This document shows positions 14,243 to 62,965 of a DNA stretch of 64,000 nt, in pieces. The number at the start of each line of letters is the position of its first letter. The first letter of the stretch is position 1. Source of the stretch: an uncultured Bacteroidales bacterium (GTDB lineage Bacteria; Bacteroidota; Bacteroidia; Bacteroidales; Paludibacteraceae); contig ONMV01000015.1 in NCBI GenBank assembly GCA_900319005.1, forward strand, positions 24,748 through 88,747, in the 5' to 3' direction. The notes below the pieces were generated by a model. It made no database searches and had not been told where the DNA came from. It was given only the letters and a program-made list of their open reading frames with translations. Made by a program: the position numbers and the translations under genes.

Positions 14243-15073
14243 TTATTCAAACTTTTTGTTGGCTTTGTGTGCGGAGCGTTGCGTAAGGCGTTGTTGAGAA
14301 CGCGTCATGTGCGGATTTCTGTAATGATTCCGACGCACATCGCGGCCAGTAATGATCTCATACCACACACAAGCTGCGGTATATCGACCATAGACATAAT
14401 TAAGATGATACCCATCGCGACAGAGAGAATCTCCTAATTTGGTTGCCCTTGCGTTTTGGATCGCCAAACCGCAGGGAATGAGTTTTAGTTGAGAATTGAA
14501 GATTGACAATTGATAATTAGCCGTATCCATCACATACTGCGTGCAAGCAACGATGGAGTCCCACATCTCGGTTTGAGAGTTGTGATAGCGAGGATAAGCG
14601 GGGTGTTTGGCGTCTTGGCTGTATGCCCAAGTCTGCATCCAACAGAGTTGGGTTTGGGGCTGATAAGCAAGGACGGTATCGATAAGGAGTGAGAGCCAAG
14701 GCTCGTAAGAAGAACGGATACCGGAGTCGTGGCTCGCCTGTTGGAGGGAAATGAAATCATACTTGCCGTCACGGAGTGCTTGGCGGAGCGAGATGGTGTC
14801 TTTGACAAGACGAAACCTTTCCCCATCCCTCTCATAAAGAGAGGGAGAAAGGTTTGTACAAACACGATGGGAATAGGCGGCGGTGTCTTTTTGCAGGAAC
14901 TCAGCATGTTGCTGCAGCGAACAACCGCCATAATAGAGGTTGTGGACCTCGACCTCAATACCTTTCGCGTCGCAGAGCGGCACGAGTTCCTGCTCTACTG
15001 CATCCCAAGAGAAGGAGTTTCCGATGCATAATACTCGGATAGCGAGTAATATAGTTAAAATGGTGCTTTGCAC
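14243..15073 (-). CDS. DUF4886 (SGNH-hydrolase-like) protein
   Basis: 276 residues starting with GTG at 15073. LCIGNSFSWDAVEQEL (about residues 15-30) with the block I serine, YYGGCSLQQH and the C-terminal DGYHLN (catalytic Asp/His block) fit DUF4886, a group of SGNH-type esterases or lipases. Such proteins probably de-esterify glycans. The signal peptide is very short and merges with the first strand. The coding sequence carries two in-frame repeat insertions: a GC-rich palindrome (14813-14855, giving NLSPSLYERDGER) and a heptamer run (14483-14520, giving NYQLSIFNSQLK), both absent from the family consensus as I know it. Confidence 0.75.
   Translation of the reverse strand: MQSTILTILLAIRVLCIGNSFSWDAVEQELVPLCDAKGIEVEVHNLYYGGCSLQQHAEFLQKDTAAYSHRVCTNLSPSLYERDGERFRLVKDTISLRQALRDGKYDFISLQQASHDSGIRSSYEPWLSLLIDTVLAYQPQTQLCWMQTWAYSQDAKHPAYPRYHNSQTEMWDSIVACTQYVMDTANYQLSIFNSQLKLIPCGLAIQNARATKLGDSLCRDGYHLNYVYGRYTAACVWYEIITGRDVRRNHYRNPHMTRSQQRLTQRSAHKANKKFE
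14483..14520. repeat. Heptamer run inside the DUF4886 gene
   Basis: On the coding strand five 7-bp units: ATTATCA, ATTGTCA, ATCTTCA, ATTCTCA, ACTAAAA. Read in frame as NYQLSIFNSQLK. Confidence 0.85.
14813..14855. repeat. GC-rich palindromic element inside the DUF4886 gene
   Basis: AAACCTTTC and CCCTCTC pair with GAGAGGG and GAAAGGTTT around ATAAA, 43 bp in total. Coding strand reads SPSLYERDGE, similar to peptides at the other palindromes. Confidence 0.85.
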
Positions 15074-15121
15074 GTTAAAGAGTTAAAATGGTTTTTATTT
15101 TATAAAAACGTTAAACAATTA
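15073..15121. repeat. Dispersed GTTAAAATGG repeat, copy 1
   Basis: Begins at the DUF4886 GTG and ends in the polA stop codon. Contains GTTAAAATGGTTTTT, a small AT palindrome and AAAAACGTTAAA. A second copy with the same order lies at 46149-46203. Confidence 0.65.
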
Positions 15122-17446
15122 GTGTGCTTCGAGCCAGTTGTTCCCCACTCCACACTCGGCGATAAGGGGAACGGAGAGATGGACGGCATTCTGCATCTCA
15201 GAGACCACAATCTCACGTACACGCTCTACTTCGGCAGCAGGGACGTTGAAGTTGAGTTCGTCATGGACCTGCATCGTCATCTGGGTTCGCAGATTTTCCT
15301 CTTTGAGTCGGCGGTGAATGGAAACCATCGCCATTTTGATGATATCAGCAGCTGTTCCTTGAATAGGAGCGTTCACGGCGTTGCGTTCGGCAAACGAGCG
15401 GACGGTAGCATTCTGCGAATGGATATCCGGCAGGTAGCGTTTGCGACCAAAGAGCGTCTCTGCGTAGCCTTTTTGGCGCGCGAGCTCTTTCTGGGATTCA
15501 ATATAGCTGATGATCCTCGGGAAAGCTGCGAAATAATCGTCAATGAGTTGTTTGGCCTCGGAACGGCTGCATTCCAATTGTTGTGCCAAACCAAAAGCAG
15601 AGATACCATAAATGATACCAAAATTAGCGGTTTTGGCTTTTCTGCGTTGGTCTTTGGTTACTTGGTCAATCGGCAGACCGTAAATCCTCGCCGCCGTAGC
15701 AGCGTGGATATCCTGCCCCGACCGGAACGCCGCTAACATATGTTCATCCTGGCTGAAATGCGCCATAAGCCGGAGCTCAATCTGGCTGTAGTCGGCAGAG
15801 AGGAAGAGACATCCCTCATCAGGGATGACCGCTTCACGTATGAAACGTCCTCGCTCGGAACGAATCGGCAGGTTTTGCAGATTCGGGTTACTTGACGAAA
15901 GACGACCTGTGGCAGTAACCGTCTGGTTGTATGTCGTGTGGATTTTTCCGTCCGCAGCGATATAACCCGGCAGAGCTGCTATATACGTGGTTATCAGTTT
16001 TTTCAGTTCGCGGTAATCCAAGATCAGCCCCACAATCTCATGCTTCTCCTTGAGCGCCATAAGCACTTCTTCGGAAGTGGAGTACTGGCCTGTTTTGGAT
16101 TTCTTCGCCTTGCTGTCCAGTTTGAGTTTATCGAACAGGAGTTCGCCCACCTGTCGGGGGCTGTTGATATTAAAAGGTTCGCCTGCAAGGTCGTAGATTT
16201 TCTGCTCCAAGGCATTCAGTTCATCAGTAAGAGCTATCTCAGCACTTTTCAGTTTATTCACGTCGATACGGACTCCGGCGGCTTCCATTTCACGCAACAC
16301 CTCGACCAAGGGCAATTCCACTTCGTTATAGAGGTTCCAGAGGTCGGCATCGGCTTTGAGAGCCTCCCAATCGGGTTCTTTATTGGGGTTGAAGGCTACT
16401 TCCGGGTTGAGGAGGTATTGGCACAATCGAGCTTCGATGGTATCGAATAACCCCACCCCTTCCCTCCCCACAAGGGAGGGAGATTCTTCTACGGGATCGG
16501 CGAAGAGGTCGAGCTGGTTGGGGTCAGCGGGCTTGGCTTTTTTGGATGCTGGTTTATCCGCCAAACTCGGCGGATTGATGGAGGAGGGGGCAAGTTTCTT
16601 GAGGAGGGTGTTGAACTCGAGGTCTTGATAGAGGGCAGTGAGGGCATCGAGTTTGGGTTCTTTCTTAGCGAGAAGGTCTTCGTCTAAGTCAATAGGAACA
16701 TCCGTACGGATAGTAGCCAGGAAACGTGAGAACTTGATCTCCTCGACTTGAGATTCCACTTTCGTACGCAGGGCACCCTTGATCTCATCGGTATGAGCGA
16801 GCATGTTGTCAATATCGCCAAACTGCTGCAATAGTGCCACCGCGGTCTTCTCCCCCACTCCTTTACAACCGGGAATATTATCGGAAGCATCACCCATAAG
16901 TCCCAGCAAATCAATGACTTGTTCTTTACGCTGCAATCCGTATTTGTCACACACTTCCTTAGGTCCCATCAACTCAAAACCTCCAGAATGACGCGGACGA
17001 TACATGAACACATGGTCGGAGACGAGTTGCCCGTAGTCCTTATCGGGTGTCGCCATATAGACTTCGTATCCCGCCTGTTCTCCTTTCTTGGAAAGCGTAC
17101 CGATGACGTCATCGGCTTCAAATCCGGGGACTTCCAGCACAGGGATATTCATTGCCTCCAGGATCTGCTTAATAACCGGAACCGCTTTCCGGATATCTTC
17201 CGGAGTCTCCGGACGTTGCGCTTTGTATTGCTCGTACGCCTCATGCCGGAAGGTTCCCCCGGCAGGATCAAATGCCACACCAAGATGGGTCGGGTTGATT
17301 TTCTTGATCAGATCCTCTAAGGTTACGCAAAAACCGAATATAGCAGAGGTATTCTCTCCCTTGCTATTCATTCGCGGCACGCGGATAAAAGCGTAATACG
17401 CGCGGAAAATCATCGCGTAAGCATCAATAAGCAGAAGCTTTTTCAT
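15119..17446 (-). CDS. polA: DNA polymerase I without a recognisable proofreading domain
   Basis: 775 residues. The 5' nuclease domain spans about 1-300 (LLLIDAYAMIFRAYYAF; GFEADDVIGTL; GDASDNIPGCKGVGEKTA). The polymerase domain spans about 375-775: motif A SADYSQIELRLMAH, motif B KTANFGIIYGISAFGL, motif C MQVHDELNF. Family members usually have about 920-950 residues; the roughly 190-residue 3'-5' exonuclease domain is missing between them. Only a linker remains, with a QLDLF stretch, the palindrome-encoded ESPSLVGREGVG (16448-16485) and a short DTIEARLCQYLLNPE remnant. The enzyme should still do primer removal and gap filling, but without proofreading of its own. Followed 7 bp upstream by ung. 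Confidence 0.95.
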   Translation of the reverse strand: MKKLLLIDAYAMIFRAYYAFIRVPRMNSKGENTSAIFGFCVTLEDLIKKINPTHLGVAFDPAGGTFRHEAYEQYKAQRPETPEDIRKAVPVIKQILEAMNIPVLEVPGFEADDVIGTLSKKGEQAGYEVYMATPDKDYGQLVSDHVFMYRPRHSGGFELMGPKEVCDKYGLQRKEQVIDLLGLMGDASDNIPGCKGVGEKTAVALLQQFGDIDNMLAHTDEIKGALRTKVESQVEEIKFSRFLATIRTDVPIDLDEDLLAKKEPKLDALTALYQDLEFNTLLKKLAPSSINPPSLADKPASKKAKPADPNQLDLFADPVEESPSLVGREGVGLFDTIEARLCQYLLNPEVAFNPNKEPDWEALKADADLWNLYNEVELPLVEVLREMEAAGVRIDVNKLKSAEIALTDELNALEQKIYDLAGEPFNINSPRQVGELLFDKLKLDSKAKKSKTGQYSTSEEVLMALKEKHEIVGLILDYRELKKLITTYIAALPGYIAADGKIHTTYNQTVTATGRLSSSNPNLQNLPIRSERGRFIREAVIPDEGCLFLSADYSQIELRLMAHFSQDEHMLAAFRSGQDIHAATAARIYGLPIDQVTKDQRRKAKTANFGIIYGISAFGLAQQLECSRSEAKQLIDDYFAAFPRIISYIESQKELARQKGYAETLFGRKRYLPDIHSQNATVRSFAERNAVNAPIQGTAADIIKMAMVSIHRRLKEENLRTQMTMQVHDELNFNVPAAEVERVREIVVSEMQNAVHLSVPLIAECGVGNNWLEAH
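16448..16485. repeat. GC-rich palindromic element inside polA
   Basis: CCCTCCC (16462-16468) pairs with GGGAGGG (16474-16480). It is translated in frame as SPSLVGREGVG at the point where the exonuclease domain is missing. Confidence 0.85.
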
Positions 17447-17453
17447 TTACGAT

Positions 17454-19237: not shown

Positions 19238-19242
19238 ATTCT

Positions 19243-20770: not shown

Positions 20771-20979
20771 TTCTTAGCACGGAATAAGATAGCAAAAATC
20801 ATGCCTACAAAACCGAAGAGAGCAACCATCGGACCCAACGTTATGCGGCGGAAAGAGAAGATATCAGGATTATACTCCTCACCGGAAGGAGCTCCCACCA
20901 TCAGGGCAAAACCGATCACAATGATAGCAAAACAAACAGCTATCAAAATAAGATTGAGTTTGGGTAATGTATGTTTCAT
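20767..20979 (-). CDS. DUF3098 family small membrane protein
   Basis: 70 residues with two transmembrane helices ([20 protein letters not shown] and [18 protein letters not shown]) joined by a short loop with [15 protein letters not shown], the DUF3098 pattern. Function unknown; it almost always sits between ftsX and uppP in Bacteroidota, as here, so a role in cell envelope growth or division is likely. Confidence 0.88.
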
Positions 20980-20995
20980 AAAAAGAATTCAGATT

Positions 20996-22803: not shown

Positions 22804-22815
22804 ATTCTTTTGGTA

Positions 22816-26745: not shown

Positions 26746-27702
26746 TTATAAGTATCTAATTGATTTATATTTATTGGTACGCTTAGGCTTTAAAATATCG
26801 AATCCATAGGATAACATTAACTCGTGGCTGCCATAACTCTCAACCAACAATTTATTAGTTGGCAACTCGCAGCTATATCCCAACTGCAATCCCGATATAA
26901 TATCTACGCCCAGCAATATATTTACACTTCCGTCTATTCTGTAGCCCAAGCCCCAACGATAGCGATCTTTGAAATCACACATCAGAGTCAGGTTCACATC
27001 CCAACTGATAAAATCACTCATTATCATTGCACTCGGTGTCAACACCCATTCCCTGTGATCTTTCAATCGAAAATGATATCCACCCGTGATAAACATCGTA
27101 CCCACCAATTTCAAATCTGATTTTTCGTCCAAATCGACAACAGGTCGAGTCACGTGACTGTAACTGCCACCCACCCACCAAATCGGTGTGCAATAATAAA
27201 TTCCCACGCCCATATCAAATTTCATCCCAGACTTACTGGCTGTTGGGATCGCTTCATCGTTCGCCCCATCCGCATGATACTCGTCTTCCAAATCTTTAAG
27301 ATTCACCGAGTCACCTTTGAAGCCCACATTCACGAATCCGAGATCCACTCCGACACTCAAATAACCTTTACTAATCTTCTGACGATAAGCATACTGACCG
27401 TAAAAAGCTTGAGTCGTGAACAAACCAAACCGGTCATTCAAAAATCTCACTCCCGCACCATGTCGTGTCTTGCCTATTACGAACGGCGATGAAAAAGTGA
27501 ACCAAGTACTCATCGGAGCATTTCTCAAACTGATGTACTGCATGCGGTGCATTCCCGCCACTTTCATCAAATCGCCTTCTCCAACCGCTGCCGGATTATA
27601 GGCACTTTGCATATACATATATTGCCCCATCTGTGGGTCAAACTGCGCATGAGCAGTCACCACAGCCAACAACCCCAACAAAAGAACAATATAACGTTTC
27701 AA
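26746..27702 (-). CDS. porP: PorP/SprF family type IX secretion outer membrane protein
   Basis: 318 residues with signal peptide (ends VTAHAQF, about residue 20). FDPQMGQYMYMQSAYNPAAV is the signature start of the PorP/SprF family, followed by a 14-strand-like barrel pattern (RHGAGVRFLNDRFGLFTTQ). It tethers the T9SS to the outer membrane and helps surface anchoring. Heptamer repeats fill the 25 bp between it and the upstream DUF2795 gene. Confidence 0.95.
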   Translation of the reverse strand: MKRYIVLLLGLLAVVTAHAQFDPQMGQYMYMQSAYNPAAVGEGDLMKVAGMHRMQYISLRNAPMSTWFTFSSPFVIGKTRHGAGVRFLNDRFGLFTTQAFYGQYAYRQKISKGYLSVGVDLGFVNVGFKGDSVNLKDLEDEYHADGANDEAIPTASKSGMKFDMGVGIYYCTPIWWVGGSYSHVTRPVVDLDEKSDLKLVGTMFITGGYHFRLKDHREWVLTPSAMIMSDFISWDVNLTLMCDFKDRYRWGLGYRIDGSVNILLGVDIISGLQLGYSCELPTNKLLVESYGSHELMLSYGFDILKPKRTNKYKSIRYL

Positions 27703-27729
27703 TTCTCAACTTTCAATTTTCAATTAATC
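27703..27729. repeat. Heptamer run between DUF2795 and porP
   Basis: ATTCTCA, ACTTTCA, ATTTTCA, ATTAATC: 7-bp units making up the whole intercistronic spacer. Confidence 0.75.
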
Positions 27730-28648: not shown

Positions 28649-28675
28649 AATTTTCAATTATCAATCATCAATTAA
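28649..28675. repeat. Heptamer run between methyltransferase and adenosyltransferase genes
   Basis: TTTTCAA, TTATCAA, TCATCAA, TTAATTC. The methyltransferase stop codon is inside the run. Confidence 0.75.
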
Positions 28676-39988: not shown

Positions 39989-39996
39989 AAGACCTT

Positions 39997-40036
39997 ACAA
40001 TTTACGATTTACAATTCACAATTCACAATTACAGCA
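39997..40036. repeat. Heptamer run between frdC and frdA
   Basis: CAATTTA, CGATTTA, CAATTCA, CAATTCA, CAATTAC. Fills the spacer between frdC stop and frdA start. Confidence 0.8.
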
Positions 40037-42495: not shown

Positions 42496-42645
42496 AAATA
42501 TAATTTACAGATTTATGATTTACAGATTTACGATTTATTGACGAATTATTTTTATTTACGATTTACGCGGCTGACAATCGTCCATTTCTTTCAATCGTCA
42601 ATCAATCGTACCTCGTCAATCGTCAAATCGTCAATTTCGTTTATG
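42490..42645. repeat. Two repeat blocks between exbB and exbD
   Basis: First block (42490-42545) has TTTACAGA/TTTACGA-like units of 7-8 bp; second (42590-42640) has repeated ATCGTCA words. Together they make almost the entire spacer. Confidence 0.65.
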
Positions 42646-43330: not shown

Positions 43331-43411
43331 ATAAATCTTTCTATTTTCAATTTTCAAGATTTTCGCTTGTCGAAAATAATCGTTCGAGCAAAGCGAGATA
43401 AGAATTATCAA

Positions 43412-44231: not shown

Positions 44232-44265
44232 AATTTTTAATTTTTAATTTTTAATTTTCAATTAA
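44232..44265. repeat. Heptamer run in the nadK promoter
   Basis: Three TTTTTAA units, then TTTTCAA and TTAAATG. It covers the position where the -33 box of nadK should be. Confidence 0.75.
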
Positions 44266-48815: not shown

Positions 48816-48869
48816 CGGTCTATACTCTATCAGCGTAGCGGTCTATACTCTATCAGCGAAGCGGTCTCT
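48816..48869. repeat. 23-bp tandem repeat (GACCGCTTCGCT family)
   Basis: Two 23-bp units (48816-48838 and 48839-48861) and a partial third up to the secA stop codon. On the minus strand they begin GACCGCTTCGCTGATAGAG. Related copies are at 55529-55551 and 56953-56975. Confidence 0.85.
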
Positions 48870-51800
48870 TAAATCCCCGCGGCATTTAATCTTCCGTGGC
48901 ATTGCTTGTATTTCTTGCCACTTCCGCACGGACACGGATCATTCGGTCTCGGTTTCTTATCCGCATGAATCGGTTCGGGACGGGCGTTCTCACGGGTGTC
49001 ACGTCCTGCTGCTTGCGCTGCACCGGAAGCATGAGCAGCCTGCTGCACCGCATCTTTCTGCGTCCGGTAACGGCTGTAATCCATTCGGCGTTGTTGCTGT
49101 GCCTGCTGTACCTGATCCGGCTCGGTCACATGAATCTGACCGCGCAGCAGGATTGCGATCGCACGGCGGTTCAGCGCATCCAGCATTGCTTTGAAAATAT
49201 GGAACGACTCCAACTTATAGATCAACAGCGGATCTTTCTGCTCATACGAAGCGTTCTGAACACTCTGCTTGAGGTCGTCCAACTGACGGAGATGCTCTTT
49301 CCACTCATCATCGATGACGTAGAGCAACATACGTTTCTCGAACTCCTTCACCACCTCTTTGCAATGCGTCTCTGCTGCTTTCTTGAGGTTCACGGCGATG
49401 TTATAGACACGTTTGCCGTCGGTGATCGGAATGAGGATGTTCTCATACATCTGTCCCTTGGTCTCATAGACGTACTGGATCTGAGGATCAGCTATCTGGG
49501 TCAACTTGTCCATACGGCGTTTGAAGCTGTCGAGCGCAGACTCAGCGAGTTGGTTGGATAGCGCTTCACGTTTGCCACGACTGAACGTCTCCTCGTCAAA
49601 CGGCATCTCGATAGCGAAAACCTGCATCGTATCGAACTTGAGTCCCTCGTAGTCATTCGCGCTCTTGGCATCCGAAACGAGGTTTTCTGCGATCTCATAG
49701 ATCATGTTCGTTATATCCACACCGATTCGCTCGCCCATCAACGCGTGACGACGTTTGGCGTAGATGAGGTTACGCTGCTGGTTCATCACATCGTCGTATT
49801 CGATAAGGCGTTTTCGGATACCGAAGTTGTTCTCCTCCACTTTCTTCTGCGCACGTTCGATAGAGTTCGATATCATCGAGTGCTCGATCATCTCGCCTTC
49901 CTCGAAGCCCATACGATCCATGATAGAAGCGATTTTTTCGCTACCGAACATACGCATCAAATCATCTTCGAGCGATACATAGAAGACCGAACTACCCGGG
50001 TCACCCTGACGTCCGGCACGACCACGTAACTGTCTGTCCACACGGCGGCTCTCATGACGCTCGGTACCGATGATAGCGAGACCTCCCGCCTCTTTCACCT
50101 CCGGCGTCAACTTGATATCGGTACCACGACCCGCCATGTTGGTCGCGATCGTCACCACGCCCGCACGACCTGCTTCGGCTACGACCTGCGCTTCCTGTTG
50201 GTGCAACTTGGCGTTCAGCACATTATGTTTGATCTTACGCATCGTAAGCATCTTGCTCAGCAACTCCGATATCTCCACACTCGTCGTACCCACCAGTACC
50301 GGACGACCTTGGTTCACCATGTTCACGATCTCGTCGATGACGGCGTTGTATTTCTCGCGTTTGGTTCGGTAAATACGGTCGTTCATATCGATACGGGCGA
50401 TGGGTTTGTTGGTCGGGATAACCACTACGTCCAACTTGTAGATATTCCAGAACTCACCTGCCTCGGTCTCTGCGGTACCGGTCATACCGGCGAGTTTATG
50501 GTACATACGGAAGTAGTTCTGCAGCGTGATGGTCGCAAAAGTCTGGGTAGCCCCTTCGACCTTCACGTTCTCTTTCGCTTCCACCGCCTGATGCAGACCG
50601 TCACTCCAGCGACGACCCTCCATCACACGGCCTGTCTGCTCATCTACGATCTTCACCTCGCCGCCGTCAATGATGTAATCCACATCTTTCTCGAAGAGGG
50701 TGTACGCTTTGAGCAGCTGGTGAACGGTGTGTACGCGTTCCGACTTGATCGAATAGTTAGTGAGGATCTCGTCTTTCTTCTGCTGAGCCTCTTCCTTCGT
50801 ACATCGTCCTTCGTTACTTTGTACTTCTACTTCCGCCATCTCACTTCCTACATCCGGCAGAACGAAGAAATTCGGGTCATCGGTCGAACCCGTGAGGGCA
50901 TCGATACCCTTATCGGTCAGTTCGATGGACTTGTTCTTCTCGTCAATTACGAAATAGAGTTCGTCCGTCGCAATGTGCATATTCTTCTCGTTCTCTTGCA
51001 GATAGAACTCTTCCGTCTTCTGCAAACGCACTTTGACACCTGGCTCGGAGAGGTACTTGATCAGCGCCTTGCTCTTCGGCAGACCCTTGAAAGCACGGAA
51101 AAGCGCCAACTCACCTGCCTCACGCTCTTTCTCGTCCTGTGACGACATCTTCTTTTTCGCTTCAACCAACAGGTTCGTCGTCAAGGTCGTCTGCTGTCTT
51201 ACCAACGCTGCCACACGGTCTTTGTACTCATCGAACATCTGATCCTCTCCGCGGGGAACAGGACCACTGATAATCAACGGAGTACGGGCATCGTCAATCA
51301 ACACCGAGTCCACCTCATCCACGATCGCATAGTTATGTCCGCGTTGTACCAGATCCAGCGGAGAGGTTGCCATGTTATCGCGCAGGTAGTCGAAACCGAA
51401 CTCATTGTTCGTTCCGAAAGTGATATCGCAGGCATAAGCCTTACGACGCTCGTCCGAATTCGGTTTGTGCTTGTCGATACAATCGACCGTCAGACCGAGG
51501 AACATATAGATCGGACCGTTCCATTCCGAGTCACGTTTGGCGAGGTAGTCGTTCACCGTCACCACATGGACACCCTCGTGCGTCAACGCGTTCAGATAAA
51601 CCGGCAGCGTAGCCACGAGGGTCTTACCTTCACCGGTTGCCATCTCGGCTATCTTACCTTGATGCAGAACAACACCACCGAACAACTGCACGTCGTAATG
51701 GATCATATCCCATTTGATCTCATTTCCTCCCGCCATCCAGTGGTTCTTATAAACAGCGATATCCTTCGTACTTGGTACTTGGTCACTTTGTTCCTTAGAC

Positions 51801-52426: not shown

Positions 52427-52469
52427 TAATTTTCAATTTTCAATTTTCAATTCTCAATTTTCAATTATT
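52427..52469. repeat. Heptamer run between secA and the HTH-like gene
   Basis: Several TTTTCAA units with TTCTCAA and TTATTTT variants in the 380-bp intergenic region. A small hairpin TGCCATTTTGGCA precedes it at about 52386-52398. Confidence 0.8.
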
Positions 52470-53092: not shown

Positions 53093-53101
53093 TTTAACAT
53101 T

Positions 53102-53818: not shown

Positions 53819-53960
53819 CCACAAAAAAACGGGATAAAAACGACATTCGAGTGGGTGATTAGTGGGTGATTAGTGGGTGGATAGTGGGTGGATAAGCCAA
53901 CGTGAGGCTAAGATCAAGCCTCAAAAAGAACGATTTCGGCTACACTTGCAAATCACGGTG
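53819..53960 (-). ncRNA. Possible small RNA from an orphan promoter
   Basis: A minus-strand promoter (53961-53992) would transcribe this gene-free region leftward. The RNA would contain the four 11-bp repeats and end near a T-rich stretch at about 53830-53820, or continue as antisense into the 53102-53818 gene. No start codon with a useful frame was seen. Existence is inference from the promoter only. Confidence 0.3.
53850..53893. repeat. Four 11-bp tandem repeats (AGTGGGTGATT type)
   Basis: AGTGGGTGATT twice, then AGTGGGTGGAT twice, 31 bp after the stop of the preceding gene. They lie downstream of the orphan minus-strand promoter at 53961-53992. Confidence 0.9.
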
Positions 53961-54996: not shown

Positions 54997-54998
54997 AT

Positions 54999-55038
54999 AG
55001 TCCACTAGTCCACTAGTCTACTAGTCCACTAGTTTACC
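54999..55038. repeat. 8-bp tandem repeat (AGTCCACT x5)
   Basis: AGTCCACT, AGTCCACT, AGTCTACT, AGTCCACT, AGTTTACC, starting 3 bp after the lipid kinase stop and ending 14 bp before dut. Confidence 0.9.
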
Positions 55039-55052
55039 AGAATATTCGAATT

Positions 55053-55487
55053 ATGGAACTAAAAATAATCAACAAGAGCAATAATCCGCTGCCTCGTTAC
55101 GAGAGTGAGCAGGCAGCAGGAATGGATATACGATGCAACATCAGCGAGGCAATCACCTTGCAGCCGATGGAAAGACGTCTTATCCCGACAGGTCTCTTCA
55201 TCGAGTTACCGGTCGGTTATGAAGCACAGATCCGTCCGCGTAGCGGTCTTGCCCTCAAACGCGGACTGACCGTACTCAACACACCGGGTACCATCGATGC
55301 CGACTACCGCGGAGAGATAGGCGTCATCCTCATCAACCTCAGCGGTGAAGCGCAGACCATCGAACCCGGCGAACGGATATGCCAGATGGTGATCGCCGGA
55401 CATGAGACACCGGAGGTTGTGGAAGTGACCGAACTGAGTGCTACCGAACGAGGAGAAGGCGGGTTCGGACACTCGGGAAGAAAATGA
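55053..55487 (+). CDS. dut: dUTP diphosphatase
   Basis: 144 residues. AAGMDIRC (motif 1), [11 protein letters not shown] (motif 2), [18 protein letters not shown] (motif 3), ERICQMVI (motif 4) and [11 protein letters not shown] (motif 5) are all present. It converts dUTP to dUMP and keeps uracil out of DNA, complementing Ung. Normal length. Confidence 0.97.
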
Positions 55488-55530
55488 AAAGTGAAAGGTA
55501 AAAGATGAAAGTAGGAATAAAGAATAAAGA
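55485..55530. repeat. Heptamer run from the dut stop into the TPR gene start
   Basis: TGAAAAG, TGAAAGG, TAAAAGA, TGAAAGT, AGGAATA, AAGAATA. The dut stop and the TPR start codon lie within it. Confidence 0.8.
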
Positions 55531-56416
55531 CCGCTTCGCTAAAAGAATAAAGACTAAACGACTACTGATGATAGCATTTTTGTCTTTATTCCTTACTCCT
55601 TATTCTTTAATCGTTTCTCAAAACACGGTTGAGCAGGAACAGCAGTTCACTTATTATTGGTATGCCGCCAAACAAGCCATCAACGCAGAGAAATACGACG
55701 AAGCCCTGACACTCTTGGAGTTCTGCCGGCTCATCAAACCCGACGACGGACAGACCCTCACATTCTTAGGCACGATGTACGACGCGCTGAGAATGCCGGA
55801 AAGGGCTATGAAACTGTTTAAAGAAGCCTATGAAGCCGATCCCGACGGGCAATGGAAAAACTACCTCGAGAGACTTCTCCAGCAAGCCGTCAACGAAGGA
55901 CAATGGAAACAAGCCATTAAGATCCAAGACGAGATAGACAAACACCAGGAATACGATGCAGCAAGCGCATATACGCACGGACGATTGTACCTCTTTGCCG
56001 GCAAACCTAAAAAAGCCCTCGCTGCGATTGATAAGTACTTGGAGACCGACCCGACTCACCTGCCCTTACTGACTTTCCGCGTGGAGATCATGGAGCAGAC
56101 GAAAGCGAAGAGCAAGGATCTGTACACCTATTACAAACGGATCTTGGCGCTCAACCCGGGACATTTGATGATCCTCAATAACTACGCTTACCATCTCGCT
56201 ACACATGGCGGAGATCTCAAAGAGGCAGAGCGGATGAGTGCTATCACTATCCGGGAAGAACCCGACAACGCCGTTTATCTGGATACATACGGATGGATTC
56301 TCCATCTGCAGGGACAAGACGAACTGGCACTCTTCTTCCTCCAACGTGCCCTCAGTAACGCATCCGAAAACACCAACGAAGAAATACAAAAACATATCAA
56401 TGCAATTAAAAAATAA
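55505..56416 (+). CDS. TPR repeat protein, secreted or membrane-anchored
   Basis: 303 residues. Signal or anchor sequence RLLMIAFLSLFLTPYSLIVS (about residues 19-38) followed by about six TPR-like helical pairs (EKYDEALTLLEFCRLIKPDD; MPERAMKLFKEAYEADPDGQ; LDTYGWILHLQGQDELALFF). TPR proteins hold protein complexes; in this cluster (DUF4292 lipoprotein, EnvC-like protein) an envelope role is likely. The n-region is encoded by a 23-bp repeat copy and the hydrophobic core by four heptamers (55583-55610). 3' end overlaps the next gene by 17 bp. Confidence 0.82.
   Translation: MKVGIKNKDRFAKRIKTKRLLMIAFLSLFLTPYSLIVSQNTVEQEQQFTYYWYAAKQAINAEKYDEALTLLEFCRLIKPDDGQTLTFLGTMYDALRMPERAMKLFKEAYEADPDGQWKNYLERLLQQAVNEGQWKQAIKIQDEIDKHQEYDAASAYTHGRLYLFAGKPKKALAAIDKYLETDPTHLPLLTFRVEIMEQTKAKSKDLYTYYKRILALNPGHLMILNNYAYHLATHGGDLKEAERMSAITIREEPDNAVYLDTYGWILHLQGQDELALFFLQRALSNASENTNEEIQKHINAIKK
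55529..55551. repeat. 23-bp repeat copy in the TPR gene start
   Basis: GACCGCTTCGCTAAAAGAAT plus AAA, matching the family at 48816 and 56953. It codes for the basic n-region of the signal sequence. Confidence 0.75.
55583..55610. repeat. Heptamer run coding for a signal-peptide core
   Basis: TCTTTAT, TCCTTAC, TCCTTAT, TCTTTAA: four 7-bp units reading SLFLTPYSLI in frame. Confidence 0.8.
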
Positions 56417-56954
56417 ATACCTGTTTCTGCTGGCTGCTCTGTTTCTCATCAGTTGTGGAACGAAAAAGAAAATAACTGAGAGCCATCAGCCGGAAATGAG
56501 CCAACCGACTTGGCACACCTGTCTTATCCAGAATGCCAAAGCAACCCTCTCCATGGACGGAAACCCTCTCTCCGCTACCGTCACCATGCAGACGGTTCAC
56601 GACTCGATGCTCGTCATCAGCGTTATGCCCCTCTTGGGAATAGAGGTGGCACGATTCGAAGCTACACCCTTGGAGTTAACCGGTATCAATAAGTTCGACG
56701 GCACTTATGCCACCATAACCTATGCCGAACTGAACCGTACACTTACCCCCTCTCTGAACTGGGACATCCTCCAGCAGACCTGTACCGCCGAACTGCCTAC
56801 AGGCTCAGAGAAAGCCCGATTAGTGTACCAACTGGGAGAGAAAACGATTGAACTGATCATTGACTACACTCCACGACGGCTGGATGTACCCGTCCGGGTG
56901 AGCCATCAGAACCTCAGCAGATACAAAAAAATAGATATCAATAAATGGTTATGA
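56400..56954 (+). CDS. DUF4292 lipoprotein
   Basis: 184 residues from ATG 56400. Lipobox LFLISCGTKK (Cys at about 18). The body (LDGNPLSATVTMQ-like start, MPLLGIEVARFEATPLELTG, VSHQNLSRYKKIDINKWL at the end) matches DUF4292, a LolA/LolB-like fold in Bacteroidota, possibly involved in lipoprotein handling. It overlaps the TPR gene by 17 bp and the M23 gene by 10 bp, so the three are likely coupled. Confidence 0.85.
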   Translation: MQLKNKYLFLLAALFLISCGTKKKITESHQPEMSQPTWHTCLIQNAKATLSMDGNPLSATVTMQTVHDSMLVISVMPLLGIEVARFEATPLELTGINKFDGTYATITYAELNRTLTPSLNWDILQQTCTAELPTGSEKARLVYQLGEKTIELIIDYTPRRLDVPVRVSHQNLSRYKKIDINKWL

Positions 56955-58195
56955 CCGCTTCGCTGAAAGACATAAGACCGCTCGTTGCTCTCGCTAAAAG
57001 ACAAAAGACGAAATGGGTTCGACTAATCTTATTAGTCCTTTGTCCTTTGTCCTTTGCCCTTTGTCCACTTCAGGCTGCGGATAATGTGAAAGACTTGCAA
57101 AACAAGCAGAAGAAACTACAACAGGAGATTGAGCATACCAACAAAATGCTCAAGCAGACCAAGAAAGATGAAAGTGCTACGATGAACAAGTTGCAGCTGA
57201 TCGGTAATAATATCAAGAACCAAAAGAAACTGATCAATGCCTTGGACAATGAGATCTTCGCCCTCAATGCGGAGATGACCGCTTTAAGTGCTACCCGTGA
57301 TTCATTGCAAACCGTACTGGAATCCTACAAAGCCGATTACGCCGAGATGGTACGTCAGAGCCATTTCGCACAAATGCAACAATCCCCCCTCTTGTTTCTC
57401 CTGAGCAGCGACAGTTTTCAGCAATTAGCGCGCAGAGCACGTTACCTCCAGGAGTTTGCGGCATTCCGGCAGGAACAAGTCCGACGCATCGAACATACAC
57501 AATCGGAGATAGACATCCAGAACGAACTGCTGCAAGCTAACAAACATGACAAACTGACCGCCCTCGACACCCGCAAACGTGAGCAAGAGAACCTCAAACG
57601 AGACGAACGCAAGCAGCAGACCATGCTCAAACAGCTCAAGAGCAAAGAGAAAGATCTCAGCAAACAGCTCAAAGCCCAGCAAAAGAAAGTAGCGGAGCTG
57701 AACAAGAAAATCGACGAGATGGTTCGCCAACAAGCGCAGAAAGCTTCCAAGACATCCCTCACCAAAGAGCAAAAACTACTTGCCGGAGGTTTTGAAGCGA
57801 ACAAAGGACGTCTCCCTTGGCCCGTTGAGAAAGGCATGATCAGTGGACATTTCGGCAAACAGCAACACCCTCTCCATGAACATGTGATCATTGATAACAA
57901 AGGCATATACATCCAAACGACTGCAGGTACCAAAGCGCGTGCAGTCTATAAAGGAGAAGTTACCAGTTGTTTCATCATCGCCGGCACATATGCCGTCATC
58001 GTGCAGCATGGTAACTACCGCACAGTCTATTCCAACCTCACCTCGCTTAACGTTAAGCAGGGCGACCAAGTGGATACCAAACAAGTGATCGGTACCATCT
58101 TCACCGACCCCGAACAAGACCAGAAAACGGAATTATATTTCCAGATATACAAAGATATGAACATCGTAAACCCTGAATTATGGATAGCAAAATAA
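56945..58195 (+). CDS. EnvC-like coiled-coil protein with degenerate M23 domain
   Basis: 416 residues. Signal sequence (about 22-45), a long coiled coil (about 48-285) and a C-terminal LytM/M23 domain (MISGHFGKQQHPLHEHVIID; KGEVTSCFIIAGTYAVIVQH; GNYRTVYSNLTSLNVKQGDQ). The zinc-binding residues are partly lost (the last LHFE-type motif reads LYFQI), as in EnvC, which activates amidases at the septum together with FtsEX. So likely a regulator and not an enzyme. The first residues come from 23-bp repeat copies and the signal core from heptamers. Confidence 0.85.
   Translation: MVMTASLKDIRPLVALAKRQKTKWVRLILLVLCPLSFALCPLQAADNVKDLQNKQKKLQQEIEHTNKMLKQTKKDESATMNKLQLIGNNIKNQKKLINALDNEIFALNAEMTALSATRDSLQTVLESYKADYAEMVRQSHFAQMQQSPLLFLLSSDSFQQLARRARYLQEFAAFRQEQVRRIEHTQSEIDIQNELLQANKHDKLTALDTRKREQENLKRDERKQQTMLKQLKSKEKDLSKQLKAQQKKVAELNKKIDEMVRQQAQKASKTSLTKEQKLLAGGFEANKGRLPWPVEKGMISGHFGKQQHPLHEHVIIDNKGIYIQTTAGTKARAVYKGEVTSCFIIAGTYAVIVQHGNYRTVYSNLTSLNVKQGDQVDTKQVIGTIFTDPEQDQKTELYFQIYKDMNIVNPELWIAK
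56953..56975. repeat. 23-bp repeat copy in the EnvC-like gene start
   Basis: GACCGCTTCGCTGAAAGACA plus TAA, followed by a second diverged copy to about 57010. It forms codons 3-20 of the EnvC-like gene. Confidence 0.8.
57037..57064. repeat. Heptamer run coding for a signal-peptide core
   Basis: CCTTTGT, CCTTTGT, CCTTTGC, CCTTTGT; in frame LCPLSFALCP, which forms the hydrophobic core of the signal peptide. Confidence 0.85.
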
Positions 58196-58698
58196 AGTTG
58201 AAAGTAGAAAGTTTAAAGTGGATAGTTATCTCGCTCATAGCGATCACTTTTCTGCCCGGCTGCAAGCAAGATGAATGGACCGATTGGAGATTGCAGAACG
58301 ACATATGGTTGGAGTTGAACAAGGCGAAAGATAGTGTGCAAACCACCTCCACCGGTTTACAATACAAAATCATTGCCGACCCCTTGGCGGAGAACAATGA
58401 TGCCAAGCCCAAACCCAATAGTACAGTGGTTTGTGATTACACCTTGAGACTGATCAACGGAACTGTCATCGAGTCCAGAAAGGAACAACCCATCTATCTG
58501 GCAAGTACGATTCCCGGATTCAGAGAAGGATGTATCAAAGTACGCACCCACGGAGACATTCACCTCTATATCCCGGCACACTTAGGCTATGATTACGACA
58601 CCTCAGACGGAAGAGGAGCCGGCACGGAGGGTTACAAGACCTATATTCCCCCTTATTCAACGCTTATTTACGAGATTCATATATGCAGTTTCTATTAA
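58180..58698 (+). CDS. FKBP-type peptidyl-prolyl isomerase lipoprotein
   Basis: 172 residues. Lipobox ITFLPGCKQD (Cys at about 28) after a signal helix, then an FKBP domain (TSTGLQYKIIADPLAE; STVVCDYTLRLINGTVIESR; GFREGCIKVRTHGDIHLYIP; YDTSDGRG). It should help fold exported proteins in the periplasm. The first codons after ATG consist of four heptamers (58194-58221). Start overlaps the EnvC-like gene by 16 bp. Confidence 0.9.
   Translation: MDSKIKLKVESLKWIVISLIAITFLPGCKQDEWTDWRLQNDIWLELNKAKDSVQTTSTGLQYKIIADPLAENNDAKPKPNSTVVCDYTLRLINGTVIESRKEQPIYLASTIPGFREGCIKVRTHGDIHLYIPAHLGYDYDTSDGRGAGTEGYKTYIPPYSTLIYEIHICSFY
58194..58221. repeat. Heptamer run at the FKBP gene start
   Basis: AAAGTTG, AAAGTAG, AAAGTTT, AAAGTGG: codes for KLKVESLKW, the signal n-region. 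Confidence 0.8.
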
Positions 58699-59174: not shown

Positions 59175-59575
59175 TCACCAAAGACGATTTACTCTCCCTC
59201 GGTTTTCTCAAACGAACCCACAACAAAGACTTACCTCCGTTCGTCTTTGTGCAACGTGACGGGCTCTTTGTACCTTTCCGCTCCGAAGAGATTGCTTCGC
59301 TCATGGGCGAGGAGATTTGGGTACTTCGCAGCGACGTGCAGGAAGAAGAGGACGGACTGATGACTTGGCAGGATCTGGTAGGTTACACCATCGAGGACGA
59401 AGGAGCAAAAGGTGAATGGGTAACGGTCGGCGTCATTGCAGACATCGACGAGAGTACCATCAACACCTTAGCGACCCTTGAAGACGGACGGATGATCCCC
59501 CTTCATGAAGATTTTATTATAGATATAGACGAAGACGCACATCTTCTGCGCGTCCATTTACCCTTTGCGCTATGA
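59171..59575 (+). CDS. rimM: RimM-like ribosome maturation protein, shortened
   Basis: 134 residues from ATG 59171. The C-terminal PRC-type half is clear (LVGYTIEDE; VGVIADIDESTINTLATLED; MIPLHEDFIIDIDEDAHLLR, then VHLPFAL). The N-terminal domain (LGFLKRTHNKDLPPFVFVQR) is about 35 residues shorter than in usual RimM of 170 residues; the HGxxGE-type segment is not there. It assists 30S head assembly. Placed 4 bp into trmH (overlap), a fitting RNA-related pair. Confidence 0.72.
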   Translation: MITKDDLLSLGFLKRTHNKDLPPFVFVQRDGLFVPFRSEEIASLMGEEIWVLRSDVQEEEDGLMTWQDLVGYTIEDEGAKGEWVTVGVIADIDESTINTLATLEDGRMIPLHEDFIIDIDEDAHLLRVHLPFAL

Positions 59576-60144
59576 GAGAAAAACTAACCGCACAAGAGAT
59601 GGGGCGCATGAACGTGGAGCAATACCGCGAAGCCGACAAACTGCCGCTGGTAGTAGTCCTTGACAACGTGCGCAGCCAACATAACGTGGGGGCAGTCTTC
59701 CGCACAGCCGACGCCATGCGGATTGAGAAAGTGGTGCTCTGCGGGATCTGTTGCTGCCCCCCGAACCAAGAGATCCATAAGACCGCCCTCGGAGCAGAGG
59801 AGAGTGTGGATTGGGTCTATTTCAAAGAGACACTTGATGCCGTCCATGATCTCCAAGCCGAAGGCTACACCGTTTATGCTATCGAACAAGCCCATAACTC
59901 CATCACCCTCGAAGAAGCAGTGGAGCAATTATCAATTGTCAATTATCAATTGTCAATTAGTCCTAAGACAGCCGTTGTCTTAGGACACGAGGTCTTCGGT
60001 GTTCAACAAGAAGTAGTAGATAGTTGTAATCAATGTATAGAGATCCCTCAATACGGAACGAAGCACTCAATGAACGTGTCGGTAACGGCAGGCATTGTGA
60101 TGTACCGCTTTGCCTCCTCTCTCCGGCGAAGAACAAAGAAGTAG
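59572..60144 (+). CDS. TrmH/SpoU family RNA 2'-O-methyltransferase
   Basis: 190 residues with the SPOUT motifs: LVVVLDNVRSQHNVGAVFRT (motif 1), AVVLGHEVFGVQQEVVDSCN (motif 2) and IPQYGTKHSMNVSVTAGIVM (motif 3). It methylates ribose in tRNA or rRNA using SAM. The coding sequence contains five heptamers (59936-59970) that read as QLSIVNYQLSIS between motifs 1 and 2, directly before the motif 2 strand. Its last 112 bp are shared in another frame with the U32 gene. Confidence 0.93.
   Translation: MREKLTAQEMGRMNVEQYREADKLPLVVVLDNVRSQHNVGAVFRTADAMRIEKVVLCGICCCPPNQEIHKTALGAEESVDWVYFKETLDAVHDLQAEGYTVYAIEQAHNSITLEEAVEQLSIVNYQLSISPKTAVVLGHEVFGVQQEVVDSCNQCIEIPQYGTKHSMNVSVTAGIVMYRFASSLRRRTKK
59936..59970. 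repeat. Heptamer run inside trmH
   Basis: CAATTAT, CAATTGT, CAATTAT, CAATTGT, CAATTAG, in frame QLSIVNYQLSIS. Confidence 0.9.
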
Positions 60145-61604
60145 CAAAGGCTGCCATTCAAGCAGGAGCAGACGCTGTTTATATTGGTCCTCCGGCTTTC
60201 GGTGCGCGGCAAGCGGCAGGTAACTCGTTGGAGGACTTGGCGGAAGTGGTTCGTTACGCGCATACATACGGAGTGCAGGTCTTGGTGACGATGAACACCT
60301 TACTCCATGAGGACGAGTACCCAGAAGCCGTCTCGCTCGCGCACGCGCTATATAAAATAGGAGTCGATGCGCTGATCATTCAGGATTTACATTTGTTGGA
60401 GTTGGACTTGCCGCCTATCAGGCTGCACGCTTCCACACAGTGCGACAACCGTACGCCCGAACAAGTAAAACGGCTCAAAGAGTTGGGCTTCAAACGGGTC
60501 GTTTTAGCGCGCGAGTTAAGCATCGAGGAGATTCGGGCAATCCATGATGAAGTGCCGGATATAGAGTTGGAGGCGTTTGTTCATGGCGCTTTGTGCGTCT
60601 CTTATTCCGGACGATGCTATATATCCGAAGTGCTCGCCGGACGAAGTGCCAACAGAGGTGCTTGCGCACAGTTCTGCCGTATGGCGTACGACCTGTTGGA
60701 CAGCGAGATGAATGAGGTCTTGGACGAACAAGGAGTGCCTATTCATCAGCGGCATTTACTGAGTTTGCAGGACATGGACCGCTCTGCCTATCTGAACGAA
60801 ATGATAGAAGCAGGTGTGACGACTTTTAAGATTGAAGGACGACTAAAAGACGCTGATTATGTGACGAATATAACGGCGTATTACAGAGAGAAATTAGATA
60901 ACCTCACCCCGACCCTCTCCATAGGGAGAGGGAGTTCCTCCCTTGAGGGGAGGTCAGGAGGGGTTTTTACCCGCTCTTTTACACCGAATCCCGAGAAGAC
61001 GTTTCATCGAGGAGGGATTGATTATTTCTTGCACGGACGGACAGCACATATGGCGAATTGGGACACCCCAAAATCAACAGGAGAGTACATCGGCGAAGTG
61101 CTGGAAGCCCGCGGTAACACGCTGAGAGTGAGACTAAAAGAGGGCATCGTGCTGCATAACGGAGACGGTCTGACGATAAGTAGCGAAGGGTTTAGTGTAA
61201 ATGGGGTCGAAGAGAATATTGTGAAGATTAATAAAACTATCACCAATAACCTATCACCTATCACCTTTACTCCGTTATATCGAAATCTGGATGTGGAATT
61301 CGTGAAGAACCTGAGAAGCGAACGGAAGATTCCTGTAGATGTTGTTTTGAGAGAGACAGAAGACGGTTTTGAGTTGATATATACCCCTATTGATTCAAAG
61401 CTCTCTCCCCTTGTGGGGAGAGTTGGAGAGGGGTTCAACAAAGAGCCTGCCAAGAATGCAGACAAAGCCCTCGATACGATCCGTACTCAGCTCTCCAAAT
61501 TAGGCGACACGCCCTATATAGCGCGCGAAGTGCGAATTGAGAGTAAACCGTATTTTATACCGATTAGTGTTTTGAACGAATGGAGACGAGCAACTATCCT
61601 TTGA
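60033..61604 (+). CDS. Peptidase U32 family protein (collagenase-like), C-terminal domain split off
   Basis: 523 residues. LLSPAKNKEVAKAAIQAGAD, YIGPPAFGARQAAGNSLEDL, EAFVHGALCVSYSGRCYISE and NRGACAQFCRMAYDL, with the cysteines of the U32 cluster, are clear. Related proteins hydroxylate tRNA (TrhP) or act as proteases. The only in-frame start is ATG 60033, giving 27 extra residues that overlap trmH. Three in-frame insertions: palindromes at 60913-60953 and 61403-61422, heptamers at 61237-61271. The normal C-terminal domain is missing and appears as a separate ORF at 61580-61768. Confidence 0.88.
   Translation: MYRDPSIRNEALNERVGNGRHCDVPLCLLSPAKNKEVAKAAIQAGADAVYIGPPAFGARQAAGNSLEDLAEVVRYAHTYGVQVLVTMNTLLHEDEYPEAVSLAHALYKIGVDALIIQDLHLLELDLPPIRLHASTQCDNRTPEQVKRLKELGFKRVVLARELSIEEIRAIHDEVPDIELEAFVHGALCVSYSGRCYISEVLAGRSANRGACAQFCRMAYDLLDSEMNEVLDEQGVPIHQRHLLSLQDMDRSAYLNEMIEAGVTTFKIEGRLKDADYVTNITAYYREKLDNLTPTLSIGRGSSSLEGRSGGVFTRSFTPNPEKTFHRGGIDYFLHGRTAHMANWDTPKSTGEYIGEVLEARGNTLRVRLKEGIVLHNGDGLTISSEGFSVNGVEENIVKINKTITNNLSPITFTPLYRNLDVEFVKNLRSERKIPVDVVLRETEDGFELIYTPIDSKLSPLVGRVGEGFNKEPAKNADKALDTIRTQLSKLGDTPYIAREVRIESKPYFIPISVLNEWRRATIL
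60913..60953. repeat. Double GC-rich palindrome inside the U32 gene
   Basis: CCCTCTCC with GGAGAGGG (60913-60932) and CCTCCC with GGGGAGG (60937-60953). Peptide LTPTLSIGRGSSSLEGRSGG. Confidence 0.85.
61237..61271. repeat. Heptamer run inside the U32 gene
   Basis: CTATCAC, CAATAAC, CTATCAC, CTATCAC, CTTTACT, reading TITNNLSPITFTP in frame. Confidence 0.85.
61403..61422. repeat. GC-rich palindrome inside the U32 gene
   Basis: CTCTCCCC and GGGGAGAG around TTGT; peptide LSPLVGRVGEG. Confidence 0.85.
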
Positions 61605-61768
61605 TGACTTGCAAATACTGCCTGCTCTTTGAGTTGGGACATTGTCGCAAGATTAATCCTTATCCGAAAGATAAGGAGCCACGTTTTCTGCGTCTCCGTA
61701 CGGGCAAAATTCTCCGCCTTACCTTCGATTGCAAGAACTGCGAAATGCTGGTAGATAACAATGAATAA
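61580..61768 (+). CDS. Detached C-terminal domain of the U32 protein
   Basis: 62 residues: NYPLMTCKYCLLFELGHCRK and LRLTFDCKNCEMLV match the zinc-like C-terminal domain that normally ends U32 proteins of Bacteroidota. It overlaps the U32 gene by 25 bp in another frame and has its own ATG (61580). Either a frameshift split one gene (mutation or sequencing error near 61590-61600) or the domain is made as a coupled separate protein. Confidence 0.75.
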   Translation: METSNYPLMTCKYCLLFELGHCRKINPYPKDKEPRFLRLRTGKILRLTFDCKNCEMLVDNNE

Positions 61769-61774
61769 TTAATA

Positions 61775-62965
61775 ATGAATATTTTCGTAGCGAGTATATT
61801 ATTCTTAGTGCTACACGTTTCTACGGGGGAGAGCGTGACGGCAGCGGTAGATAGTGCGCGGGCTGTGTATAAGGAACGGGGAGAGAGGACAACGATAGTC
61901 ATTGAACCGGGGACTTATTGCGAGGAACTGACGATTGATGTGCCGGGATTGAGCTTGAAGAACGCAAGTCGGAAACCTTCTATCGGGCTGAAGAACCACG
62001 GCGTGGAAGCCGATCCGGAGGCTGTACGGCTGACTTGGTACTATGGGCATGGATACCAATACAAGAGCATGGGTAACCGCGTGAACTATGGTGGATCAAG
62101 AGAGAGACGATGGAACGCGTCGGTACTGGTGACGGCTCCGGATTTCTATGCAGAGAATATCATCTTTGAGAACTCGTTTAACCTCTATGTCTGCGAGAAA
62201 GAAGCAGCAGACAGTCTGGTAGATATTTCGCAATCCGACATGCCGTGGACAGCAAAAGAGCGACCAAAGAAAGTGATGCCGGTTCGCCCGAAAGAGGTGG
62301 GTTCGACAGAGGTGCAAAAGAAGAAATACAGGGAACGCGCAGCGGCTATCTCGTTTACAGAGACGGCGAAGAATGCGCATTTAAAGAACTGCCGTGCCGT
62401 GGGACGACAAGATGTGTTGTACGGCGATGATGGAGCAAGTATCTACTGGGAAGGCGGTATTTTGGCAGGAGGCGTGGATTTTATCTTCGGAGCGATGACG
62501 ATGTGCGTGAACAAGGCAACTATTGTAGCCAATATCAATGGCGAGAAAGGCGATAAGTGTTACATCGCGGCAGGCAGAAGTGAAGAGGGCACACGGGGTA
62601 TGTTATTCTATAAATGTCACATCCGGTTGGCGAATGAGGAGGAGTTGGAAATTTCAAATTTCAAATCTCAAATCTCAAATGCCAAACCCGAGGTTTGGCT
62701 CGCTCGTCCGTGGAGATGGTGGGGCGAGACCGTTTGGGCATATACCACATGGGACGAGGGAGTCTTGAACAGCGAAGGTTGGTCCTTGGGTTTGGTGAAA
62801 GACAAAGAGGGATACAATGCAGATGATCCGTGTCCAAACAGCTATGAGTACAAGTCGCAGGATCAATCAAAAGGAAGACCGAGTTGGGTACGCGTGCTGA
62901 AGAAGCCGGTCTTACCGGACGGAACCAAGATTAGCCCGAAGAAGTGGATAAAAAATACATATTGA
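61775..62965 (+). CDS. Pectinesterase-like CE8 protein
   Basis: 396 residues, right-handed beta-helix pectin methylesterase family. TTIVIEPGTYCEELTIDVPG, LVTAPDFYAENIIFENSF, RQDVLYGDD and GGVDFIFGAMTMCVNKATIV (with the catalytic Asp in VDFIFG) followed by WLARPWRWWGETVWAY are typical. It removes methyl groups from pectin so that the PL1 lyase can cut. Signal peptide is short (about 1-18). Heptamers at 62653-62687 add EISNFKSQISNAKPE. Confidence 0.92.
   Translation: MNIFVASILFLVLHVSTGESVTAAVDSARAVYKERGERTTIVIEPGTYCEELTIDVPGLSLKNASRKPSIGLKNHGVEADPEAVRLTWYYGHGYQYKSMGNRVNYGGSRERRWNASVLVTAPDFYAENIIFENSFNLYVCEKEAADSLVDISQSDMPWTAKERPKKVMPVRPKEVGSTEVQKKKYRERAAAISFTETAKNAHLKNCRAVGRQDVLYGDDGASIYWEGGILAGGVDFIFGAMTMCVNKATIVANINGEKGDKCYIAAGRSEEGTRGMLFYKCHIRLANEEELEISNFKSQISNAKPEVWLARPWRWWGETVWAYTTWDEGVLNSEGWSLGLVKDKEGYNADDPCPNSYEYKSQDQSKGRPSWVRVLKKPVLPDGTKISPKKWIKNTY
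62653..62687. repeat. Heptamer run inside the pectinesterase gene
   Basis: TTCAAAT, TTCAAAT, CTCAAAT, CTCAAAT, GCCAAAC; reads SNFKSQISNAK in frame. Confidence 0.9.

Follow-up and report, generated by a model that had tools for sequence, protein, structure and literature searches.

Heptamer arrays in the window

The window analyzed here, a stretch of 64,000 nucleotides from an uncultured Bacteroidales bacterium (contig ONMV01000015.1 of GenBank assembly GCA_900319005.1), carries short tandem arrays of 7-bp units in spacers, at gene junctions and inside genes. Its source genome is a rumen MAG of the Paludibacteraceae type (2.18 Mb, 41 contigs, 85% complete). Arrays were located with Tandem Repeats Finder (TRF) and with our own lag-7 detector, and the window was compared with G055, a sister species whose main blocks are 83 to 87% identical to it. 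TRF finds a TTTCAAT array in a spacer at 27697–27725 (degenerate in G055), AATTATC and TTACAAT arrays at gene junctions at 28649–28674 and 39995–40030 (G055 has a different, ACACATT-like run at the former and different sequence at the latter), a short TTTCAAT array at 43338–43357 with one extra unit (7 bp) in G055, an AATTTTT array in a divergent spacer at 44232–44263 that is identical in G055, a weak CTTGGTA array at 51764–51788 (a different repeat-like sequence in G055) and an AATTTTC array in a divergent spacer at 52428–52466 that is absent from G055. The runs that a preliminary description had reported at 27703, 28649, 39997, 44232 and 52427 are recovered at, or within a few bases of, these positions. 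Its run at 55485 is present but weak and mixed; this gene-junction run spans 55481–55530 by our detector, appears as TRF rows 55515–55530 and 55542–55564, and is absent from G055.

Six further arrays lie on the plus strand between 57035 and 62686. In frame are a GTCCTTT array in an M23 peptidase gene (array 57035–57066, gene 56945–58195; one base different in G055), an AAAGTTG array at the start of an FKBP lipoprotein gene (58194–58227 in 58180–58698), a CAATTAT/CAATTGT array in trmH (59926–59959 in 59572–60144; loop residues about 118–131), a CTATCAC array in a U32 peptidase gene (61237–61266 in 60033–61604) and an AAATTTC/AAATCTC array, identical in G055, in a pectinesterase gene (62649–62686 in 61775–62965). 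An AATGAAT run crosses the junction before the pectinesterase gene (61760–61781; 7 bp more in G055). In-frame heptamers had previously been described for trmH, the U32 gene and the pectinesterase gene, all three of which hold TRF arrays, and for a DUF4886 gene; the four frames are open and encode the expected Pfam domains. The M23 and FKBP arrays are two translated arrays beyond those. The DUF4886 run (14483–14520, in the minus-strand gene 14243–15073; peptide NYQLSIFNSQL) is detected by TRF at 14489–14518 but is the weakest, with a score of 32 and 78% matches, below the threshold of our own detector. The G055 protein has 14 extra residues within this run; there the array is interrupted by other inserted sequence, as if the array were an insertion target.

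A period of seven nucleotides

Exact lag-7 runs of at least 10 number seven in the window, where 20 dinucleotide shuffles average 0.1; an excess is also seen at lag 11, with seven such runs against 0.0. The claim that period-7 repeats pervade this DNA holds well beyond the window. At a score of at least 14, 464 kb of the source genome contain 64 lag-7 arrays, far above chance (0 in one block-wise first-order resampling), beside 13 at lag 11, six at lag 8 and at most two at each of lags 4, 5, 6, 9, 10, 12 and 13. In 1.00 Mb of relatives, 185 arrays are found at lag 7, 34 at lag 8 and 23 at lag 11, with lags 4, 5, 6, 9, 10, 12 and 13 at seven or fewer. Seven nucleotides is therefore the leading unit length among those of 4–13 nt, in the source genome and in its relatives. 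When the score limit is set at 13, lag-7 arrays number 71 in 464 kb of the source genome, 25 in 391 kb from 20 other genomes of the genus and 4 in 311 kb from 20 phylum-wide stretches, four of which (L211, L219, L222 and L223; short, GC 0.0) are seemingly masked.

The second enriched class, 11-bp tandem arrays, is represented in the window by ACTTGTTCGGT at 947–1001, TTGACCGTCGT at 12969–13002 and AGTGGGTGATT at 53850–53894. Of 18 such arrays in the 464 kb, 14 are intergenic; two of the unit families are found at more than one place, each of them several times.

The period is constant, but many different units occur. A census of 1.47 Mb of the source genome and relatives (score of at least 12, each locus counted once) gave 314 arrays with 112 distinct consensus units, rotation and strand ignored. 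The motif that these units share is weak, about 0.7 to 0.9 bit above random heptamers, and is purine-rich on one strand.

Arrays, genes and reading frame

Of 76 arrays, our simple codon-usage gene caller assigns 30 to gene interiors, 22 to gene edges and 24 to the sequence between genes. As genes cover 89% of the bases and wholly contain only these 30, arrays are depleted in genes, although the inside count is too low by at least two, because the caller missed at least the TrmH array, which it misplaced, and the M23 array, which it put between genes. The preliminary description had stressed coding insertion on an unusual scale: the arrays are indeed translated in frame, but genes hold fewer of them than their share of the sequence.

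Since 7 is not divisible by 3, an array of at least three units passes through all three frames and encodes the identical cyclic heptapeptide in any phase. With the TrmH placement corrected, the coding-strand unit is stop-free in any frame in 25 of 31 in-gene arrays, against 11 of 31 on the other strand; for the 24 intergenic arrays the figure is 11 on each strand.

The TrmH loop

The window TrmH was compared with its best 80 named relatives, all of them MAG records, whose titles are mostly Bacteroidales or Paludibacteraceae and many of which come from rumen or other animal gut; as elsewhere in this work, each species is represented by one genome. The earlier suggestion that the array-coded residues are insertions is borne out by the alignment, in which related species lack the array or have a replacement at the same residues. 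A lag-7 score of at least 7 is reached by 37 of 80 loops (window included, L111 dropped as its anchor was not found, though its loop looks heptamer-like), whereas 0.385 are expected when codons are shuffled within loops. Lag 8 gives six loops, lag 11 two, and lags 4, 5, 6, 9, 10, 12 and 13 none. The 37 array loops hold 27 different units, such as CAATTAT in the window, CAAATCA in the closest relative (92% protein identity), TTTCAAC, GAATTAC/GAATGAC, AAATCTC, GGAAAAT/GGACAAT, TACAAAG and TGCACAA. In trmH of G055 the CAAATCA array equals in length the CAATTAT/CAATTGT array of the window. Over 666 pairs, loop and flank identity are hardly coupled (r = 0.22). That one loop holds different heptamers, octamers, palindromes or nothing, according to species, is the most telling feature of the system.

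In the structural model, the array-coded residues form a low-confidence loop, predicted to sit between a helix (113–122) and a strand (133–137) before the GHEVFG motif; residues 121–130 have a mean pLDDT of 56, and 124–126 fall below 50. The commonest lengths of array loops are 69 nt (17 loops, with 13 units among them) and 60 nt (10 loops), while the commonest length of array-free loops is 42 nt (14 of 43). The loops of L107 and L120 have a common unit, of which one loop holds three more copies (21 bp), and a difference of 21 bp likewise separates the loops of L096 and L097. In L065 and L095 an 8-nt unit stands among 7-nt ones. These 21-bp steps and odd units fit the earlier proposal that neighboring bases compensate for array lengths that are not multiples of three. 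The frame is open through the loop in all 81 sequences, two of which have a stop only directly before the start codon.

The heptamer array in the TrmH loop of L121 is broken by other inserted sequence, again as if arrays were insertion targets. The window also holds a 23-bp tandem repeat, CGGTCTATACTCTATCAGCGAAG, at 48816–48867, and a similar element, judged by eye, fills the TrmH loop of L077 and others.

The U32 and pectinesterase loops

The loops of the U32 peptidase and the pectinesterase behave like that of TrmH. Among the 73 U32 loops matched (8 of 81 sequences gave no match), 13 hold heptamers, for which codon shuffling predicts 0.3, and 14 hold octamers. Among the 33 pectinesterase loops (48 of 81 without a match), nine hold heptamers against 0.14 expected, lags 5 and 8 account for two each, and eight carry no insert and measure 21 nt. 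Loops of the TrmH, U32 and pectinesterase type in other species hold, by eye, palindromes or the 23-bp-type element; perfect stems of at least 7 occur in only 5 of 73 U32 and 4 of 33 pectinesterase loops.

Palindromic inserts of the form CCCTCTCC...GGAGAGGG lie in frame in the U32 gene and in dapB of the window, at 60908–60965, 61400–61440 and 63516–63543, and similar inserts are present in U32 and pectinesterase loops of relatives.

Arrays in signal-peptide regions

Arrays also overlap signal-peptide regions. The array at 57035–57066 encodes the hydrophobic part of an M23 signal peptide, LVLCPLSFALCPLQA. An array precedes the mature M23 peptidase in 21 of 64 relatives (lag 6 gives one, seven other lags none) and the mature FKBP lipoprotein in 34 of 75 (lags 6 and 9 give two each, six others none). 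The units AAAGTTG and AAAGGTG supply the basic part (KLKVESLK, which is encoded by the window array, and KVKGERLKVKG), and GTCCTTT and TCCTTAT the hydrophobic part (LVLCPLSF and LVLIPYSLFLTP). Across eight genomes, 607 genes with a hydrophobic segment at the N-terminus were screened, and 26 have an array there, some of these 26 being mutual orthologues and some maybe not signal peptides, compared with 10 of 658 genes without such a segment (p = 0.0025) and 33 of 2067 interior windows (p = 0.0002). Control lags at the hydrophobic N-terminal segments give 0 to 9 of 607. The array-coded segments presumably work as signal peptides.

Change between relatives

Of 13 window arrays with a score of at least 10, four are the same or nearly so in G055 (44232, 57035, 58194 and 62649), one differs by 7 bp (43338) and the other eight are altered, degenerate or missing; G055 has another three arrays to which no scored window array corresponds. 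Because the arrays at 57035, 58194 and 62649 are unchanged or nearly so, not all in-gene arrays are recent.

A closer pair, G061 and G062, aligns over 50.9 kb (blocks 97.6% and 96.2% identical) with 15 structural differences. Seven of the 15 lie in heptamer context, compared with 3% of windows placed at random. These seven differ in length by 97, 70, 49, 21, 9, 9 and 17 bp, three of the values being multiples of seven. Different heptamers occupy one place clearly and another weakly.

Within arrays, neighboring units are most alike. Under an order-blind rule, the difference between units in 82 arrays rises from 0.96 to 1.22 over distances 1 to 5, compared with 1.12 to 1.05 after shuffling.

Relation to known repeats

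Rickettsia palindromic elements, which are inserted in frame in genes, are likewise repeat DNA that stays in frame where conserved proteins tolerate it; they are palindromic, whereas the present arrays are direct tandem repeats. The STRR heptamers of cyanobacteria consist of a few fixed units, such as CCCCAGT, TTGGTCA and CAACAGT; these three are the consensus of 0, 1 and 0 of the 314 arrays. The likeness to STRR drawn in the preliminary description stands as to kind, heptamer repeats being known from other bacteria, but not as to unit. STRR are mentioned in Calothrix in a passage of PMC4692102, and share with the present arrays their genome-wide spread as 7-bp tandem arrays.

Passages of PMC4679880 relate that the survey of long simple sequence repeats by Mrazek et al. 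(2007) found heptamers the most abundant class in most genomes, and that polymerase slippage was proposed, the 7-nt step reflecting polymerase contact. Here too heptamers lead and tandem 7-nt units exceed chance, but the present arrays are imperfect, a single genome has many units, conserved genes carry them in frame, and from species to species one array stands in place of another at a given site. The TAACTGA repeats described in those passages, from Beggiatoaceae, some Cyanobacteria and five Bacteroidetes including Paludibacter, are likewise heptamer direct repeats, many of them near start codons and one set reported within a purC gene (PMC4679880); they differ from the present arrays in having one fixed unit, and not one of the 314 arrays has TAACTGA as its consensus. 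The G-rich heptamers of Xanthomonas and Nostoc, according to PMC4692102, form dispersed arrays of variable copy number that are over-represented outside genes. The arrays here are similarly dispersed and commoner outside genes, but AT-rich, and GGGAATC is the consensus of 0 of 314. The same text cites simple repeats enriched near N-termini and states, as of 2015, that no detailed literature on heptamers existed (PMC4692102). Searches of an open-licence library gave no report of in-frame heptamers replaced at one site, which is not proof of absence. We place the arrays among heptamer simple repeats, as a variant rather than a separate kind.

Origin and turnover of the arrays

We consider it most likely, with a probability of roughly 0.6, that the arrays are bacterial heptamer simple-sequence repeats that turn over in a slippage-like manner, are kept where they are tolerated and are filtered by reading frame in genes. 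Slippage or small tandem duplication would lengthen or shorten arrays mostly by 7 nt, so that the period would be kept and the unit would be free to drift. Neighboring units would copy each other, edge variants could take over, and a site could change its unit yet keep its place. Arrays would survive at sites that can absorb additional sequence, namely spacers, gene junctions, surface loops and signal peptides, and in genes selection would retain mainly stop-free orientations and frame-restoring lengths, either three units (21 bp) or one odd-length unit. Some arrays may by now provide signal peptides with their basic or hydrophobic part.

The period, its excess, the in-frame location, the same-site replacement, some 7-bp and 21-bp steps, the likeness of neighboring units and the overlap with signal-peptide regions are direct observations. 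That neighboring units are alike fits the expectation from local gain and loss of units. We infer slippage as the engine, 7 nt as its polymerase-set step and selection as the filter; slippage-like turnover under frame and stop selection is probably the simplest engine. The length steps of 49, 70 and 21 bp between G061 and G062, of 7 bp at 43338 and 61760 in G055 and of 21 bp in TrmH argue for it, while the remaining four G061–G062 differences in heptamer context (97, 9, 9 and 17 bp) are not multiples of seven and argue against it. By itself, slippage leaves unexplained the whole-unit swaps between flanks that are nearly identical, the loops common to tree-distant species and the lineage vocabularies. 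In-place slippage does not easily yield cases such as L075 and L077, whose TrmH flanks are 96% and 99% identical and whose loops are unrelated, or L074 and L115, with flanks 73–74% and loops 96% identical. Arrays may also have to be copied from one another, or alleles imported.

Copying in trans, in which a lineage-specific heptamer family spreads among loci and overwrites existing arrays by ectopic conversion, template switching or an unknown copying enzyme, is the strongest competitor, though we regard it as rather improbable. It draws on the fact that genomes prefer particular units: pairs of arrays with identical units make up 5.5% within genomes compared with 2.4% when labels are shuffled (maximum 3.8% in 1000). 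The unit AATTNTCAATTNTCAATT has 142 matches in the source genome, 156 in G055 and 0 to 137 in the other 59 genomes of the genus, being present in 37 of 61 (range 0 to 156); phylum-wide it is present in 42 of 198 genomes including the source genome, none of the others exceeding 25 matches, in a survey that covers one unit and so undercounts heptamers in general. For ATTGGTRATTGGTRATT (ATTGGTR), G061 has 115 matches, the closely related G062 has 42 and four other genomes have 0 to 3. Close genomes also hold different heptamers at one place, as G061 and G062 do. Where the TrmH loop is of the AAATCNC type, the genome-wide matches number 31, 10, 12 and 11, the median being 4, a weak signal (p = 0.043, with matches in the loop itself counted and G041, which lacks the loop, left out); the reversed pattern is no clean control here, as it matches real arrays in several genomes. 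For a second loop-unit type, represented by a single genome, the same test gave p = 0.064.

Against copying in trans, the TrmH units of 33 species match the remaining arrays of their own 8.5-kb locus no better than they match arrays from other species (p = 0.80), a negative result for a vocabulary shared with TrmH at the level of the locus, and no insertion boundary or carrier was found. The 49-bp insertion of L087, considered as a complete new array, proved to be a seven-unit expansion, since L079 carries a shorter array at that place. As a mark of templated copying, transition bias among units was not strong (385 transitions, 422 transversions; no separate control).

A bolder reading, which we hold to be doubtful, would make the arrays a genome-wide, lineage-tuned source of new peptide segments, rewritten in trans at fixed permissive sites. 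Because an array gives one heptapeptide in every frame, it would supply ready loops and signal-peptide parts whatever its phase.

Exchange of loop alleles between species by homologous recombination, reshuffling an old pool of alleles, is less probable still. Near-identical TrmH loops occur in tree-distant species (L074/L115, L060/L062 and L101/L108/L114). Some of the tree nodes are weakly supported, however, and the flanks of loop-sharing pairs are only 68 to 80% identical, so that the shared tract is about the loop itself. Recombination also leaves the fixed period unexplained.

Phase variation, by which 7-bp length changes would switch genes on and off, is very improbable, although the arrays are in frame and have units of a length that three does not divide. 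The units are not perfect copies, several arrays do not differ between species about 83 to 87% identical, and the TrmH frame is open in every sequence. Phase-variable genes are usually of the surface type, and the array-bearing genes here are not. An assembly artifact, conceivable in that the most closely compared genomes are MAGs, can practically be dismissed, given that the arrays are short, frames stay open and arrays recur at orthologous places across assemblies of different projects.

About 80 related species show one period with different units at the same sites, which makes it possible to trace how arrays arise, grow and are replaced. The arrays are also an example of a simple route to new protein segments, being translated both in housekeeping-enzyme loops and in signal peptides.

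Other repeats

An octamer array, TAGTCCAC, lies at 54998–55033 of the window. A perfect ACAT run of 64 bp is present at positions 807–870 of L024 in the source genome. The spacer at 42503–42635 of the window is repeat-rich, and two more copies of it (84–85% identical) are found elsewhere on contig C4 of G055.
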